Below, piece by piece: positions 3,708-58,200 of a stretch of 64,000 nt of DNA. The translations under genes were made by a program, and so were the position numbers. Under the pieces are notes generated by a model that made no database searches, was not told the DNA's origin, and was given only the letters and a program-made list of their open reading frames with translations. The stretch comes from Pseudalkalibacillus berkeleyi. GTDB taxonomy: Bacteria > Bacillota > Bacilli > Bacillales > Fictibacillaceae. How positions within the stretch are numbered: the first letter of the stretch is position 1; every line of letters begins with the position of its first letter. The DNA lies in NCBI RefSeq assembly GCF_021608225.1, contig NZ_JAKIJS010000001.1, positions 2,356,001-2,420,000 on the forward strand. The letters run 5' to 3'.

Positions 3708-3998
3708 TTTTGCGTCGAGGTATGTTGTCTGACATCTAACATTCAACATAAATAATGTAACAGAATTCGACAAAAAAACAAGTGATTTTTTCATTTTCAG
3801 AATTGTTTCAATTAGTCCAAAATCTTCCTCCACAACAGTAATCGTAAAAGATTTACGGTTAGATTCCCCTTCTTTCCTATAGATATCCATACAAATTCGT
3901 TCTATAGAAAGAGTTCGTATGCCTGACAACGATCTTTACCATAACAACTAACTGTTTTCCCTATTTTCGGAGAGGATAGGGTGCACGACTCCCCCACC

Positions 3999-4031
3999 AT
4001 CGAGCACTCATTCTACCTCTTTAGGTGCTCC
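3999..4031. repeat. Solo unit of the 52-bp dyad repeat family
   Basis: The arms GAGCAC (4002-4007) and GTGCTC (4025-4030) bound a 29-nt dyad. The loop contains CCTCTTT, as in the array at 40.7 kb, while the arms are those of the array at 57.7 kb. It lies between yuzB and yutK with no coding capacity. Confidence 0.6.
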
Positions 4032-4065
4032 GTAGATTATTCTTGTGGGAATGGGTGCTTGGGTT

Positions 4066-4180
4066 GAATTCTAGATAAATTGGCTTTTTTCTAGATAATT
4101 TTGCAGAATTCTAGATAATTTCGTTTTTTTCTAGATAAAATCGTGTATTTCTAGATAATGTTTCATTTTTCTAGATAAAT
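4066..4180. repeat. Six-copy, 20-bp-period CTAGATAA array (first copy)
   Basis: CTAGATAA occurs at 4071, 4091, 4111, 4131, 4151 and 4171: six copies at an exact 20-bp spacing. Most copies are preceded by a run of T, and the six or so bases between units are not conserved. A second six-copy array with the same period lies at 14481. 20 is not a multiple of three, so this is not a coding repeat. The rest of the 850-bp gap from 3661 to 4509 holds the cre-like site, dyad units and two hairpins but no gene I can support. Confidence 0.85.
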
Positions 4181-4257: not shown

Positions 4258-4283
4258 GAAAAAACACCGCGATTGCGGTGTTC
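4258..4283 (-). terminator. Orphan terminator-like hairpin
   Basis: Perfect 8-bp arms AACACCGC (4263-4270) and GCGGTGTT (4275-4282) around a GATT loop, with a T6 run on the minus strand. yuzB already has its own terminator 180 bases upstream of this one, so it is either a back-up terminator or marks an unannotated short transcript. Confidence 0.55.
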
Positions 4284-4363
4284 TCATTTGGAAAAGATCG
4301 ATTTCTTCGCATTTTTTTGATTTGAATCACCTTATTTGCAACGATTTCAACAATCTCCCCGCT

Positions 4364-4425
4364 ACTGAGCAACCGTACTACCTCTTTAGGTGCTCCATTG
4401 TCCAACTCCCACGCTACCGAGCACT
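4364..4425. repeat. One-and-a-fraction units of the 52-bp dyad repeat family
   Basis: ACTGAGCA begins at 4364 and ACCGAGCAC at 4416, exactly 52 bases apart. The first unit has GAGCA (4367-4371) and TGCTC as arms of a 29-nt dyad, with CCTCTTT in the loop. The second unit is cut off after its left arm. Confidence 0.6.
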
Positions 4426-4453
4426 TATAGCACCCCAATCTATTTTCCAACGA

Positions 4454-13005: not shown

Positions 13006-13203
13006 TCATTCATCACCTCATATGATGCACCTTTGTCATACAATTGTACCATAAGTATTAGAAAATTCTAACTTTCGATGAAATATTTTTCTATTCGACA
13101 AATCCTTGTTATCATAATAGAAGCATTATGTCATACGAATATTTATTTTAGCTGATATAAGATACAATATATTCGGTTTTTTGATTTGATAAGGAGGAGA
13201 AGA

Positions 13204-14172
13204 ATGGATCGTGAATTAGCTTTAGAAATTGTTAGGGTGACAGAATCTGCTGCACTTGCCTCTGCTCAGTGGATGGGACGTGGATTAAAAAACGAAGCTG
13301 ACCATGCCGCTACAACCGCAATGAGAGCAATGTTTGATTCCGTTAATATGAAAGGTACAGTCGTCATCGGTGAAGGCGAACTTGATGAAGCACCTATGCT
13401 TTACATCGGTGAAGAGCTAGGAACAGGTAATGGACCAGATGTAGATATCGCTGTCGATCCATTAGAAGGCACAAATATCGTCGCAAAAGGACATCCAAAT
13501 GCGATGGCGGTCATTGCAATTGCAGATCGCGGCAGTTTATTACATGCACCTGACATGTATATGGAAAAGCTCGTGGTCGGTAAAGCTGCCGCTGGTAAGG
13601 TAAGCTTGTTGGATCCCATAGAAAAAATAATGGATATTGTCGCAGAGGCGAATAATAAGCGTATGCAAGATTTGACTGTTATTATTCAAGAGCGCCCTAG
13701 ACATGAAGAACTTGTTCAACGTGTACGTGAGAAAGGTGCACGTGTTAAATTGTTTGGAGATGGCGATGTTGGGGCCGCAATCGCTGCAGCAACTCCACAT
13801 ACAGGTATCGACTTATTTGTTGGAACAGGCGGCGCGCCAGAAGGCGTCATTTCGGCTGCTGCAATCAAATGCCTCGATGGTGACATGCAAGCGAGACTCG
13901 TACCAGACAATGAAGCCGAACGTAATCGTTGTGTAAGTATGGGACTCGAAGATCCGATGCAACTTTTACACTTAGACGATCTCGTTCGAGGTGATGATGC
14001 GATCTTTGCAGCAACAGGTGTTAGTTCTGGTGAGCTGCTAGAAGGTGTACGGTTCCTTTCTGGTGATCAAGTCGAGACCGATTCACTCGTAATGAGAGCG
14101 AAGACGAAAACGATTCGATCCATTAAAGCACAACATCATTTAGATCATAAACCAAATTTAGTAATGGAATAG
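13204..14172 (+). CDS. glpX: Class II fructose-1,6-bisphosphatase
   Basis: Hydrolyses fructose-1,6-bisphosphate to fructose-6-phosphate in gluconeogenesis. The GlpX signatures are clear: GEGELDEAPMLYIGEELG and DVDIAVDPLEGTNIVAKG bind the metals, followed by LFGDGDVGAAIAAA and GTGGAPEGVISAAA. The start ATG (13204-13206) is five bases after AAGGAGG and gives 322 aa, the normal length. The frame extends a few codons upstream but through the ribosome-binding site. It is followed 11 bases later by the DUF3055 gene, so the two form an operon. Bacilli often carry a second glpX copy elsewhere. Confidence 0.96.
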   Translation: MDRELALEIVRVTESAALASAQWMGRGLKNEADHAATTAMRAMFDSVNMKGTVVIGEGELDEAPMLYIGEELGTGNGPDVDIAVDPLEGTNIVAKGHPNAMAVIAIADRGSLLHAPDMYMEKLVVGKAAAGKVSLLDPIEKIMDIVAEANNKRMQDLTVIIQERPRHEELVQRVREKGARVKLFGDGDVGAAIAAATPHTGIDLFVGTGGAPEGVISAAAIKCLDGDMQARLVPDNEAERNRCVSMGLEDPMQLLHLDDLVRGDDAIFAATGVSSGELLEGVRFLSGDQVETDSLVMRAKTKTIRSIKAQHHLDHKPNLVME

Positions 14173-14183
14173 GAGTGTCAATT

Positions 14184-14456
14184 ATGTCTGAGCGTTTTTA
14201 TTTATATGATGATTCTGAAGAAACGAAAACTCGCTTTGTCAGCTTTATGGGAGAAAACCAACGATTTGACTTAGCCATTACGAAAACGGATCGTCACTAC
14301 GGTAAGCCTCTAGTGTTGGACATTCAAGGCGGACGTTTCGCGATCATTGGACGAGATGATATAGACGAACCTGGGTACATTGAACACGTCTTCAGTTTGA
14401 ACGAAGAAGATGCACAAGAATTGCGTGAATTCTTAGCTGAAGAAGTACTGTCTTAA
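14184..14456 (+). CDS. DUF3055 family protein
   Basis: A 90-aa acidic cytoplasmic protein that I assign to DUF3055 from its pattern SERFYLYDDSEETKTRFVSF, DIQGGRFAIIGRDDI and EDAQELREFLAEEV. No function is known to me. It begins ATG (14184) eight bases after TAGGAG and follows glpX by 11 bases, which points to co-expression. No cysteines, signal peptide or membrane segments are present. A six-copy 20-bp repeat array starts 24 bases after its stop. Confidence 0.8.
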   Translation: MSERFYLYDDSEETKTRFVSFMGENQRFDLAITKTDRHYGKPLVLDIQGGRFAIIGRDDIDEPGYIEHVFSLNEEDAQELREFLAEEVLS

Positions 14457-14480: not shown

Positions 14481-14594
14481 TTTTTCTAGATAATTTGCTG
14501 TTTTTCTAGATAAATTTATTTTTTTCTAGATAAAACCTCATTTTTCTAGATAATTTCCGATTTTTCTAGATAATTCCTTGTTTTTCTAGATAAA
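14481..14594. repeat. Six-copy, 20-bp-period TTTTTCTAGATAA array (second copy)
   Basis: TTTTTCTAGATAA begins at 14481, 14501, 14521, 14541, 14561 and 14581: six copies, each exactly 20 bp apart, with about 7 unconserved bases between. The core CTAGATAA and the copy number are the same as in the array at 4071-4178. The sequence from 14595 to 14745 has no other feature I can support. Confidence 0.9.
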
Positions 14595-14745
14595 TGCCTA
14601 ATTGAAGAGAAAACCTCTAAACTTTTGAGATGATCTTAAGGTTTTGCAGTGATTCATCACGATTTTGATGACTTCTACATGTTTATCTCAAGTTTTTGGA
14701 AAGGTTTTGCTACTTTAAGCACCACTCGATCGGGGTATGCTAAAA

Positions 14746-15090
14746 ATGGATAGGAACATCACCTATTCAAATGCCGACAAGGAGTGGTGTCCTTTGGCAA
14801 GAGGTTCTAAAGCAGGGTATCAGAAGGAAGTCGACGTACAGTACACGGACTTTTCAAATGTCGAAACGATGCATAGGTATGTTTTACCAGAGGATTTACC
14901 TGAAGGACCCTACGGTTCTCCAGTAAATCAGGCTCTCGGTAAATCAACACCTTTTGATGAGGACCAGCGCTATTATAGTGCATTCAACTATGAGAATAAG
15001 AACCTCCATCAAGACATCCCTAGACAATTTCCTGGTGCTCATCCAACTCATGATGATCCAGATCGAGACACAGAAACCCCATACGGGTGA
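14746..15090 (+). CDS. Uncharacterised conserved-looking cytosolic protein, 114 aa
   Basis: I do not recognise a named domain. The protein is hydrophilic and acidic, rich in Asp, Tyr, Pro and Asn, and ends in a disordered-looking tail PTHDDPDRDTETPYG. It has one cysteine (EWCPLARGSK) and no membrane segment. The ATG at 14746 lies ten bases after GGGG, a weak ribosome-binding site; an earlier in-frame ATG at 14737 is too close to it. Its placement just before the convergent yutD, and the strong shared terminator, support a real gene. Similar short proteins in bacilli are often just called cytosolic protein. Confidence 0.65.
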   Translation: MDRNITYSNADKEWCPLARGSKAGYQKEVDVQYTDFSNVETMHRYVLPEDLPEGPYGSPVNQALGKSTPFDEDQRYYSAFNYENKNLHQDIPRQFPGAHPTHDDPDRDTETPYG

Positions 15091-40722: not shown

Positions 40723-41000
40723 GTTCTCGCTCTATCCGTCGTATCCTCATTTCGCCTCTACCGCGGACAGTAAACGCCTCTTTCTATCCGCCATATCCTC
40801 ATTTCGCCACTACCGTGGACAGTAAACGCCTCTTTCTATCCGCCATATCCTCATTTCTGCTCCACCGCGGACAGTAAACGCCTCTTTCTATCCGCCATAT
40901 CCTCATTTCTGTTCCACCGCGGACAGTAAACACCTCTTTCTATCCGCCGTATCCTCATTTCAGCTCCACCGCGGACAGTAAGCACCTGATCGCCGGCACC
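40723..41000. repeat. 52-bp tandem array, family A (GCGGACAG type)
   Basis: TATCCTCATT begins at 40742, 40794, 40846, 40898 and 40950: five units at exactly 52 bases. Each full unit contains a 29-nt dyad, GCGGACAG, 13 bases, CTATCCGC (for example 40763-40791), with one C-A mismatch. The second unit has GTGGACAG, a change that still pairs as G-T. The array fills the gap between yurZ and metQ and carries no gene; the 52-bp period shifts frame every unit. Confidence 0.9.
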
Positions 41001-57586: not shown

Positions 57587-57727
57587 ACTCAATTCCTCCC
57601 TTGGTGAGATATCTCAAATGCCTAACTCACTCTCACTATTCGACAGTACCCGTTCCAATCTCCTTTAAAATATTCAGAATATCTTATGCACAAATTGATG
57701 AAGTGATGATAGACAGGAATGTATTGA

Positions 57728-58030
57728 GTGCTCCATTTTCTGTTTTCCTCTCTACCGAGCACTTATTAACCCTGTATGAGTGCTCCGTATTCTGTTTTCC
57801 TCGCTACCGAGCACCCATTGCTCCTGTATGGGTGCTCCATATTCTGTTTTCCTCGCTACCGAGCACCCATTGCTCCTGTATGGGTGCTCCATATTCTGTT
57901 TTCTTCGCTGCCGAGCACTCATTGCTCCTGTATGGGTGCTCCGTATTCTGTTTTCCTCGCTACCGAGCACCCATTGCTCCTGTATGAGTGCTCCATATTC
58001 TGCTTTCCTCTCTACCGAGCACTCATTGCA
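57728..58030. repeat. 52-bp tandem array, family B (CCGAGCAC type)
   Basis: Copies of ACCGAGCAC begin at 57754, 57806, 57858, 57910 (GCCGAGCAC), 57962 and 58014: six units at exactly 52 bases. The typical unit has the 29-nt dyad GAGCACCCAT, nine bases, ATGGGTGCTC (for example 57809-57837), a perfect 10-bp stem. Other units differ in the arms; the first (GAGCACTTAT/ATGAGTGCTC) still pairs throughout with one G-T. No gene is present; the period shifts frame. Confidence 0.92.
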
Positions 58031-58082
58031 ACGCATTGGAGGATTTTCACCTTCTCGAGTTGTTGGAGTGGCTTCCCCCTTT

Positions 58083-58200
58083 CCATCCGCCATTTCTGCT
58101 TTTCTCCATTTCCGCGGTACGAATCCGCCTCTTCCCATCCGCCATTTCAGCTTTTCTCAATTTTCGCGGTTCGTATCCGCCTCTTTCGATCCGTCACATT
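58083..58200. repeat. 52-bp tandem array, family C (CATCCGCCATTTC type)
   Basis: ATCCG of the CATCCGCC motif recurs at 58085, 58137 and 58189 (as GATCCGTC), exactly 52 bases apart. The unit aligns without gaps to family A (CGCGG, then GCCTCTT, then ATCCGCCAT), but the arms here pair only over GCGG/CCGC. It follows family B at about 50 bases and precedes the fadM terminator. No gene. Confidence 0.8.

Follow-up and report, generated by a model that had tools for sequence, protein, structure and literature searches.

Array 2, a tandem set of short direct repeats in the 64,000-nucleotide stretch of Pseudalkalibacillus berkeleyi DNA analysed here (the window), is one of 29 intergenic arrays in its genome and not a local site belonging to glpX. 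The element is real, dispersed and constrained: its arrays lie between genes, keep their cores beside unrelated spacers at a regular spacing, hold a mostly fixed number of units in two other species and differ genome-wide in one core base. As to its nature, we regard it as an even call that the array is a STAR-like dispersed intergenic element whose core supplies helically phased sites for a putative DNA-binding protein. Below, we take G000 to denote the P. berkeleyi genome, G003–G006 its congeners and G415 Bacillus mediterraneensis, with L numbers for loci.

The initial annotation had described six exact copies at 20-bp steps in array 2, and this is what we found, with units starting at 14481, 14501, 14521, 14541, 14561 and 14581, each an exact TTTTTCTAGATAA, and the last base at 14593. 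Array 1 shares the period and the unit number, as had been reported; the further statement that both arrays carry the same motif stands for three of the six array 1 cores and fails for the other three, which are variants (GAATTCTAGATAA twice and TATTTCTAGATAA once). With up to two mismatches, TTTTTCTAGATAA was present at 21 places in the window compared with a shuffle mean of 5.48, and 0 of 100 shuffles reached 21. The gene context of glpX followed by a DUF3055 gene was borne out by the PF03320 and PF11256 matches, the latter family being DUF3055. A Pfam scan of the neighbours of both window arrays returned FBPase_glpX, SAV0927-like, a nucleoside transporter N-terminus, DUF1450 and one ORF without a match. 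The start codon of glpX is unsettled, and 13204 was the start used for searches. By eye, congeners have a similar ORF starting at the same place as the small ORF 3' of array 2.

Table 1. Positions in the window of both arrays and of the features next to them
Feature	Position	Strand	Description
Array 2	14481..14593	+	Six units of 20 bp, each a TTTTTCTAGATAA core with a 7-nt spacer
Array 1	4066..4178	+	Six 20-bp units: 3 exact cores, 2 GAATTC variants, 1 TATTTC variant
glpX (class II fructose-bisphosphatase), upstream gene	13186..14172	+	PF03320 FBPase_glpX
DUF3055 (SAV0927-like) gene	14175..14456	+	PF11256; stop codon 24 nt 5' of array 2
Small ORF 3' of array 2	14737..15090	+	Without Pfam match
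Hairpin AAACACCGCG-ATT-GCGGTGTT	4262..4282		Tail 3' of array 1; common to the tail of L060 (and imperfectly L038)

Genome-wide, the hairpin AAACACCGC..GCGGTGTT is exact only at G000:C1:2360262-2360282 and 2862724-2862746, both in array tails, with an imperfect one 3' of L038. Other tandem repeats in the window have a 52-bp period (40731-40981, 4.8 copies; 57720-58029, 5.9 copies; 58079-58193, 2.2 copies), and by eye their units can form hairpins. Pieces resembling these 52-bp repeats, also judged by eye, flank array 1 (c. 3990-4060 and 4360-4440).

The draft genome around the window comprises 3.5 Mb in 8 contigs, and in it a two-unit pattern (up to 3 mismatches) was detected at 77 places and the reversed-pattern control at 0. 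Grouped by hand, these places formed 29 clusters, here called arrays, of 2-6 units each. Exact 13-mers were confined to them with a single isolated exception (61 of 62 inside), and no array (0/29) lay inside an ORF, as judged with a simple ORF caller (≥60 aa, 40 nt tolerance). After trimming, 2 units were counted in 6 arrays, 3 in 4, 4 in 8, 5 in 4 and 6 in 7, with none above 6; untrimmed chains gave 2 units in 5, 3 in 5, 4 in 8, 5 in 4, 6 in 3, 7 in 2 and 8 in 2, so that four arrays reached 7-8 units. Trimming means that low-scoring end units were dropped by hand in eight arrays (L043, L053, L057, L060 and L066 in G000; L068, L080 and L084 in G004), and the removal of the first unit of L043, GAAGTTTAGATGA, is arguable. 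L083 was counted as four units, with three further units visible by eye after a 16-nt step. Six thus looks like a ceiling in G000 rather than a constant. The proposed fixed size of six did not survive in this genome, in which only 7 of the 29 arrays have six units and copy number varies from 2 to 6 among arrays of the same chromosomal complement, the kind of variation named beforehand as speaking against a site of set size.

Within the arrays, core and spacer behave very differently. At each of core positions 4-13, 108 or more of the 118 G000 units carry the consensus base, and positions 1-3 are more variable (88, 104 and 107 of 118). At base 6, G000 has mostly C (108/118 units) and G004, whose core version is GTAGATAA, invariably G (137/137). 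The spacers had been called unrelated, and they are: mean identity in G000 (n=84) came to 0.398 for spacers of one array and 0.399 for spacers of different arrays (permutation p 0.49), and in G004 (n=95) to 0.465 and 0.477 (p 0.82), a test free of bias from selecting units by their core. Spacer composition is partly kept, with T or A as the first base in 82 of 84 G000 spacers. Steps were 20 bp in 84 of 89 cases in G000 and 20 or 21 bp in 123 of 123 in G004 (script range 18-22). In a comparison of paired arrays, which is biased toward low core divergence by the choice of units on their core, pairs with homologous tails had 2/78 core vs. 9/35 spacer differences (L067/L074), 2/39 vs. 9/14 (L056/L058), 6/78 vs. 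18/35 (L078/L088) and 8/65 vs. 14/28 (L039/L045). Between species, the shared-slot pair L057/L091 gave 17/78 vs. 22/35, while L062/L070 (5/26 vs. 4/7, p 0.068) was not significant. Copies behind rrn operons (L067-L069), with 0-1 core and 0 spacer differences, are uninformative here (p 1); L068 and L069, as rrn copies of L067, do not enter the base counts, the spacer tests or the curvature values.

Besides the own genome, 4 of 59 relatives searched matched at up to 3 mismatches, all of the same genus. With the pattern left open at the sixth base, G004 had 94 places, G006 14, G005 6 and the other four congeners 1-2, with controls at 0; in other genera of the family 4 of 26 genomes had one place each, which is control-like (the control pattern gave 1-2 places in 3 of the 26). 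We examined 26 array clusters in G004, which has at least that number, and 21 of these hold six units, the rest 3, 4, 4, 5 and 7 (untrimmed: 3 units in 1, 4 in 2, 5 in 1, 6 in 18, 7 in 3 and 8 in 1). The G004 six-unit arrays, two rrn copies excluded, also have position-specific features, in that the last step is 21 bp in 14 of 19, and core base 5 is T in 19/19 first units and C in 16/19 fourth units (0/19 first). At four of the 26 (L069, L071, L076 and L084) the array overlaps an ORF called on the other strand. Two G006 arrays were examined, L094 with six units, the last step being 21, and L095 with four; the G005 array L093 has four units, and the G003 array L096 has eight irregular ones.

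The locations themselves are mostly not shared. Among the 26 G004 arrays listed, an intergenic slot is common to both species for 3 of the 29 G000 arrays: behind recA (L044/L080), between rpmE and tdk (L057/L091) and behind purC (L062/L070). A fourth pair, L063/L071, lies about one gene apart. In both genomes the purC array adjoins a hairpin, GGTTCCGGACCA..TTCCGGAACC, and the next gene is by eye purS. Behind DUF3055, only G000 among the 8 genomes of the genus carries an array, and the 600 nt behind that gene hold none in any of the 7 congeners, so that the expectation of six motifs kept across relatives failed at the array 2 locus, and a local regulator of glpX/DUF3055 was rejected on the same finding. 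The slot in G003 and G005 contains 52-bp tandem repeats, the same in period and unlike in sequence (L098:2787-2978, L103:2861-3015); in G004 and G006 it holds, by eye, repeat-like DNA of another kind. Either a changing reader or a fresh burst displacing the older arrays would fit the C-vs.-G difference between G000 and G004. Change in place is favoured by the three shared slots, whose cores differ, but only weakly, because re-insertion at favoured slots would give the same picture.

When 397 genomes of the order were scanned with three TAGATAA words, 16 matched, including the own genome and G004. Part of these matches are coding heptad repeats, and L217 and L226 of Fictibacillus, L192, L209, L222 and L211 were excluded because they are open frames. 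Among the matches listed, non-coding-looking arrays with other neighbouring letters occur in B. mediterraneensis, Peribacillus muralis, Piscibacillus halophilus, Cytobacillus oceanisediminis, Bacillus sp. NTK034, Bacillus sp. ZZV12-4809 and Lysinibacillus sp. BPa_S21; L215, one of the P. muralis arrays, has an open frame of 151 aa on its opposite strand. The core starts with GTAG in several relatives and with CTAG in G000. GTAGATA pairs were present at 141 places in B. mediterraneensis, 36 in P. muralis and 15 in Lysinibacillus (control 1). The arrays across bacilli may reflect common descent or merely the shared word TAGATAA.

In B. mediterraneensis, 27 of 33 arrays (17 stretches) have five units and the others 7, 7, 4, 4, 3 and 2; whole elements of ~330 bp are tandemly duplicated at some places, and these array counts are therefore not independent. 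Steps were 21 bp (119) or 22 bp (10; script range 19-23), which brings the range across G000, G004 and B. mediterraneensis to 20-22 bp. The first unit reads CTAC[TC]GTAGATA in 26 of 33 arrays. A palindrome 3' of the array, GTGTAATCGGTTACAC, presumably LacI/cre-like, had a best match of at least 12/16 bases in 26 of 31 arrays (best shuffled 11), a score obtained on the same sequences from which the palindrome was derived. In 23 of 31 arrays it stands 38-39 nt past the final TAGATA; at least 12/16 bases match in 21 of these and only 10 in the other two. By eye, CAAAATGACAATTTTTAAGG follows ~100 nt after the palindrome in many copies (L301-L317). P. muralis has longer arrays of no fixed number, and a set unit number is therefore not universal.

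Array DNA had no match in plasmids, and a scan of named genomes, a set possibly without the own genome, gave 0 matches with the own motif. The viral contig L268 (IMG/VR) carries on its reverse strand (c. 1100-1190) about four near-exact 20-bp repeats, TTCTAGATAAACATAATTTA, of iteron-like appearance, and the viral contigs L267, L269 and L270 several irregularly spaced ATTTGTAGATAA words.

The arrays tend to lie behind genes read on the same strand. The nearest upstream ORF (≥80 aa) shared the strand of the motif at 21/29 arrays in G000 (p 0.024) and 20/26 in G004 (p 0.009), jointly 41/55 (binomial p 0.00036); with ORFs of ≥60 aa the counts were 21/29 and 18/26 (39/55). Divergent ORFs rarely enclose an array (2/29 and 0/26 at ≥80 aa; 2/29 and 2/26 at ≥60 aa). 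Arrays trail 5S rRNA by ~110-250 nt at three G004 rrn operons (L067-L069, copies that are not independent), in L133 from a genome of another family and in Bacillus sp. ZZV12-4809 (L147), and in G004 at least 3 of 8 5S genes are followed in this way. They also follow recA, tuf, rpmE, purA and purC, genes without a common theme. An NCBIfam scan covering 26 of the 29 upstream ORFs (without L048, L052 and L053, the last being in Pfam; 6/26 had no match at E 1e-10) returned PrsA-like, PhnE, RecA, Fur, IspH, SodC-like, MscS-like, anti-sigma, OppF-like, L31, acyl-CoA dehydrogenase, PurA, PurC, glutamate semialdehyde dehydrogenase, glutamate dehydrogenase, EF-Tu and TadA products, and, nearest upstream on the opposite strand, GlyA, an amino acid carrier and a beta-aspartyl peptidase. 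A regulon of related genes was discarded on this functional mixture.

Much of this would also be expected of a MITE/REP-like intergenic repeat that is selfish or passively dispersed and has no role in the host, in which cores would be kept through recognition by a spreading enzyme and sites behind genes would be those where insertion does little harm, and we give this reading serious though minority weight. The mostly differing sites between species and the rarity of arrays between divergent genes agree with it, and the genome-wide core-base difference would equally follow if each species had seen a burst of a single version. Further, the right flanks of some arrays are homologous over up to ~180 bp (E 1e-3) in 6/406 pairs of G000 and 5/276 of G004, and the left flanks in 1/406 and 2/276, with all controls at 0; some arrays are therefore the front part of a longer dispersed element. 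The tandem duplication of whole elements in B. mediterraneensis also speaks for this reading. No flank motif was common to most arrays of G000 or G004. Against a selfish origin, neither terminal inverted repeats nor target duplications were seen by eye in array flanks, kept cores next to unrelated spacers are unlike simple copying, and G004 combines a mostly fixed number with position-specific cores. The transposases that we looked at point the same way. Y1_Tnp matches occur in 8/8 genomes of the genus, 1-3 per genome, but the c. 3.3-kb loci around them in six genomes (own plus five congeners) contain no array, only three single TAGATAA words or overlaps, and mobilisation by RAYT is thus unsupported. 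By eye, these RAYT-like genes (L323-L328) have different repeats on their flanks, of the GGGGACGGTTCT, GGGGGACAGGTCCC and GTGCCAGGCAC type.

An RNA-level element (3' UTR, attenuator, terminator helper or sponge) made by read-through from upstream is, in our estimation, improbable. The strand bias of upstream ORFs would suit it, as would the arrays behind purC in two species and the position of array 2, which follows a stop codon without a recognised terminator in between. However, a terminator-like hairpin on the same strand lies within ~110 nt 5' of 12/29 arrays in G000 and 12/26 in G004 (24/55), which would place many arrays outside the transcript, as far as a home-made, uncalibrated finder without a chance control can tell. 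Folding points away from RNA as well: the word TCTAGA in array 2 is self-complementary and the array has a fold z of -5.6, but one G004 array gave +0.36, one G006 array -0.37 and B. mediterraneensis -1.28, so that RNA structure is not conserved across the four species folded, and arrays in 14 loci had no Rfam match. Rho sites (YC dimers) were dropped as absent by eye in some relatives, and a likeness of the G004 unit to a Cas12a repeat was dismissed, also by eye, with the stem partner missing in the spacers.

An ordinary minisatellite born of slippage is very improbable, for although the tandem direct repeats, the 2-6 copies in G000 and one pair of identical neighbouring units in L056 are of the kind it would produce, slippage explains little because spacers are no more alike within arrays than between them, cores 4-13 are near-invariant and steps keep to 20-22 bp, while the same core stands at 29 places and the number is mostly fixed in G004 and B. 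mediterraneensis, so that the initial annotation's case against slippage and for a constrained site holds.

The DNA-level reading, with phased sites for a putative protein, fits best because of the steps of about two turns, the unrelated spacers, the kept cores, the near-set palindrome distance in B. mediterraneensis and the lack of a conserved RNA structure. The mostly fixed copy number in two relatives suggests a docking site of a putative DNA-binding protein rather than random stutter. Mostly unshared locations, upstream genes without a common function and the unfixed number in G000 and P. muralis are points against this reading. Predicted curvature exceeded that of shuffles with a mean z of 2.6 (11 arrays) and 1.5 (21 arrays) against 0.03 and 0.05 in controls, an excess that is partly automatic for any repeat near two turns and that was computed with provisional wedge parameters. 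In the mechanism that we envisage, up to six direct copies of the 13-bp word, spaced by about two helical turns, would face the same side of the helix, a sequence-specific DNA-binding protein would occupy them cooperatively, and the bound protein would bend or wrap the DNA. The arrays might then mark stretches behind transcription units in a topological or nucleoid role, and the element would spread through the genome by some presumed route; a benefit to the host is something that we infer.

A stronger version, which we hold only tentatively and think rather unlikely, is that of an undescribed Bacillaceae nucleoprotein element with a set number (five or six) of phased sites, a cooperatively binding putative protein whose specificity shifts between species and drags every array with it, and a position after such transcription units as rrn operons, tuf, rpmE and recA, where the arrays would act as landmarks for topology or the nucleoid. 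A literature search, with most subscription journals outside it, found no description of these arrays. Dispersed bacterial repeats seldom give a testable clue to their reader, and here the near-set number, the unrelated spacers and the species-specific core base do so, the natural C and G variants of the core being a ready-made specificity test for a reader protein. The discovery of such a reader would tie a repeat family to the way bacilli organise their chromosomes, and the discovery of a spreading enzyme in its place would bear on STAR-like families.

Several known systems invite comparison. Iterons are direct repeats about two turns apart and MraZ operators about one turn apart, with one protein binding. 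The arrays resemble both in being direct repeats at helical-turn spacing, yet differ in occupying 29 places per genome, and the scanned neighbours of the two window arrays include neither a replication initiator gene nor mraZ.

CRISPR arrays have repeats of 24-48 bp (PMC3733652) and non-repetitive, regularly sized spacers, unlike the 13-bp core and 7-nt spacers here. The same source, where it treats REP/BIME and GTAG-tagged repeats with RAYT, describes dispersed extragenic, species-specific families of palindromic stem-loops. Our arrays share with these the dispersal, the species specificity and, in several relatives, a core start of GTAG, but they are direct repeats without a conserved hairpin or palindromic unit, and the arrangement of a RAYT gene flanked by its own repeats is not seen at six Y1-transposase loci, which lack arrays. 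The bcr1 and stem-loop families of Bacillus are dispersed and intergenic and are defined by secondary structure, and the passages on them describe no 20-bp phased array (PMC2267715).

The closest likeness is to STAR of Staphylococcus, which in the sections of PMC3532100 on the motif has a GC-rich 14-bp motif with the core T(G/A/T)TGTTG(G/T)GGCCC(C/A), spacers of ≥40 bp that are often alike within a locus, and 1-6 motifs at the gapR locus; its function and spreading are given there as unknown, and its authors propose purifying selection (PMC3532100). The core here is instead AT-rich and 13 bp long (TTTTTCTAGATAA), the spacers are 7 nt and unrelated within a locus, and two-turn phasing is joined to a mostly fixed number in two relatives. 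What the arrays have in common with STAR, as those sections portray it, is short direct repeats with spacers, dispersed between genes at loci that differ from species to species. Measured against that portrayal, the arrays are not STAR members, differing in core, spacer and phasing, yet in their distribution they are STAR-like.
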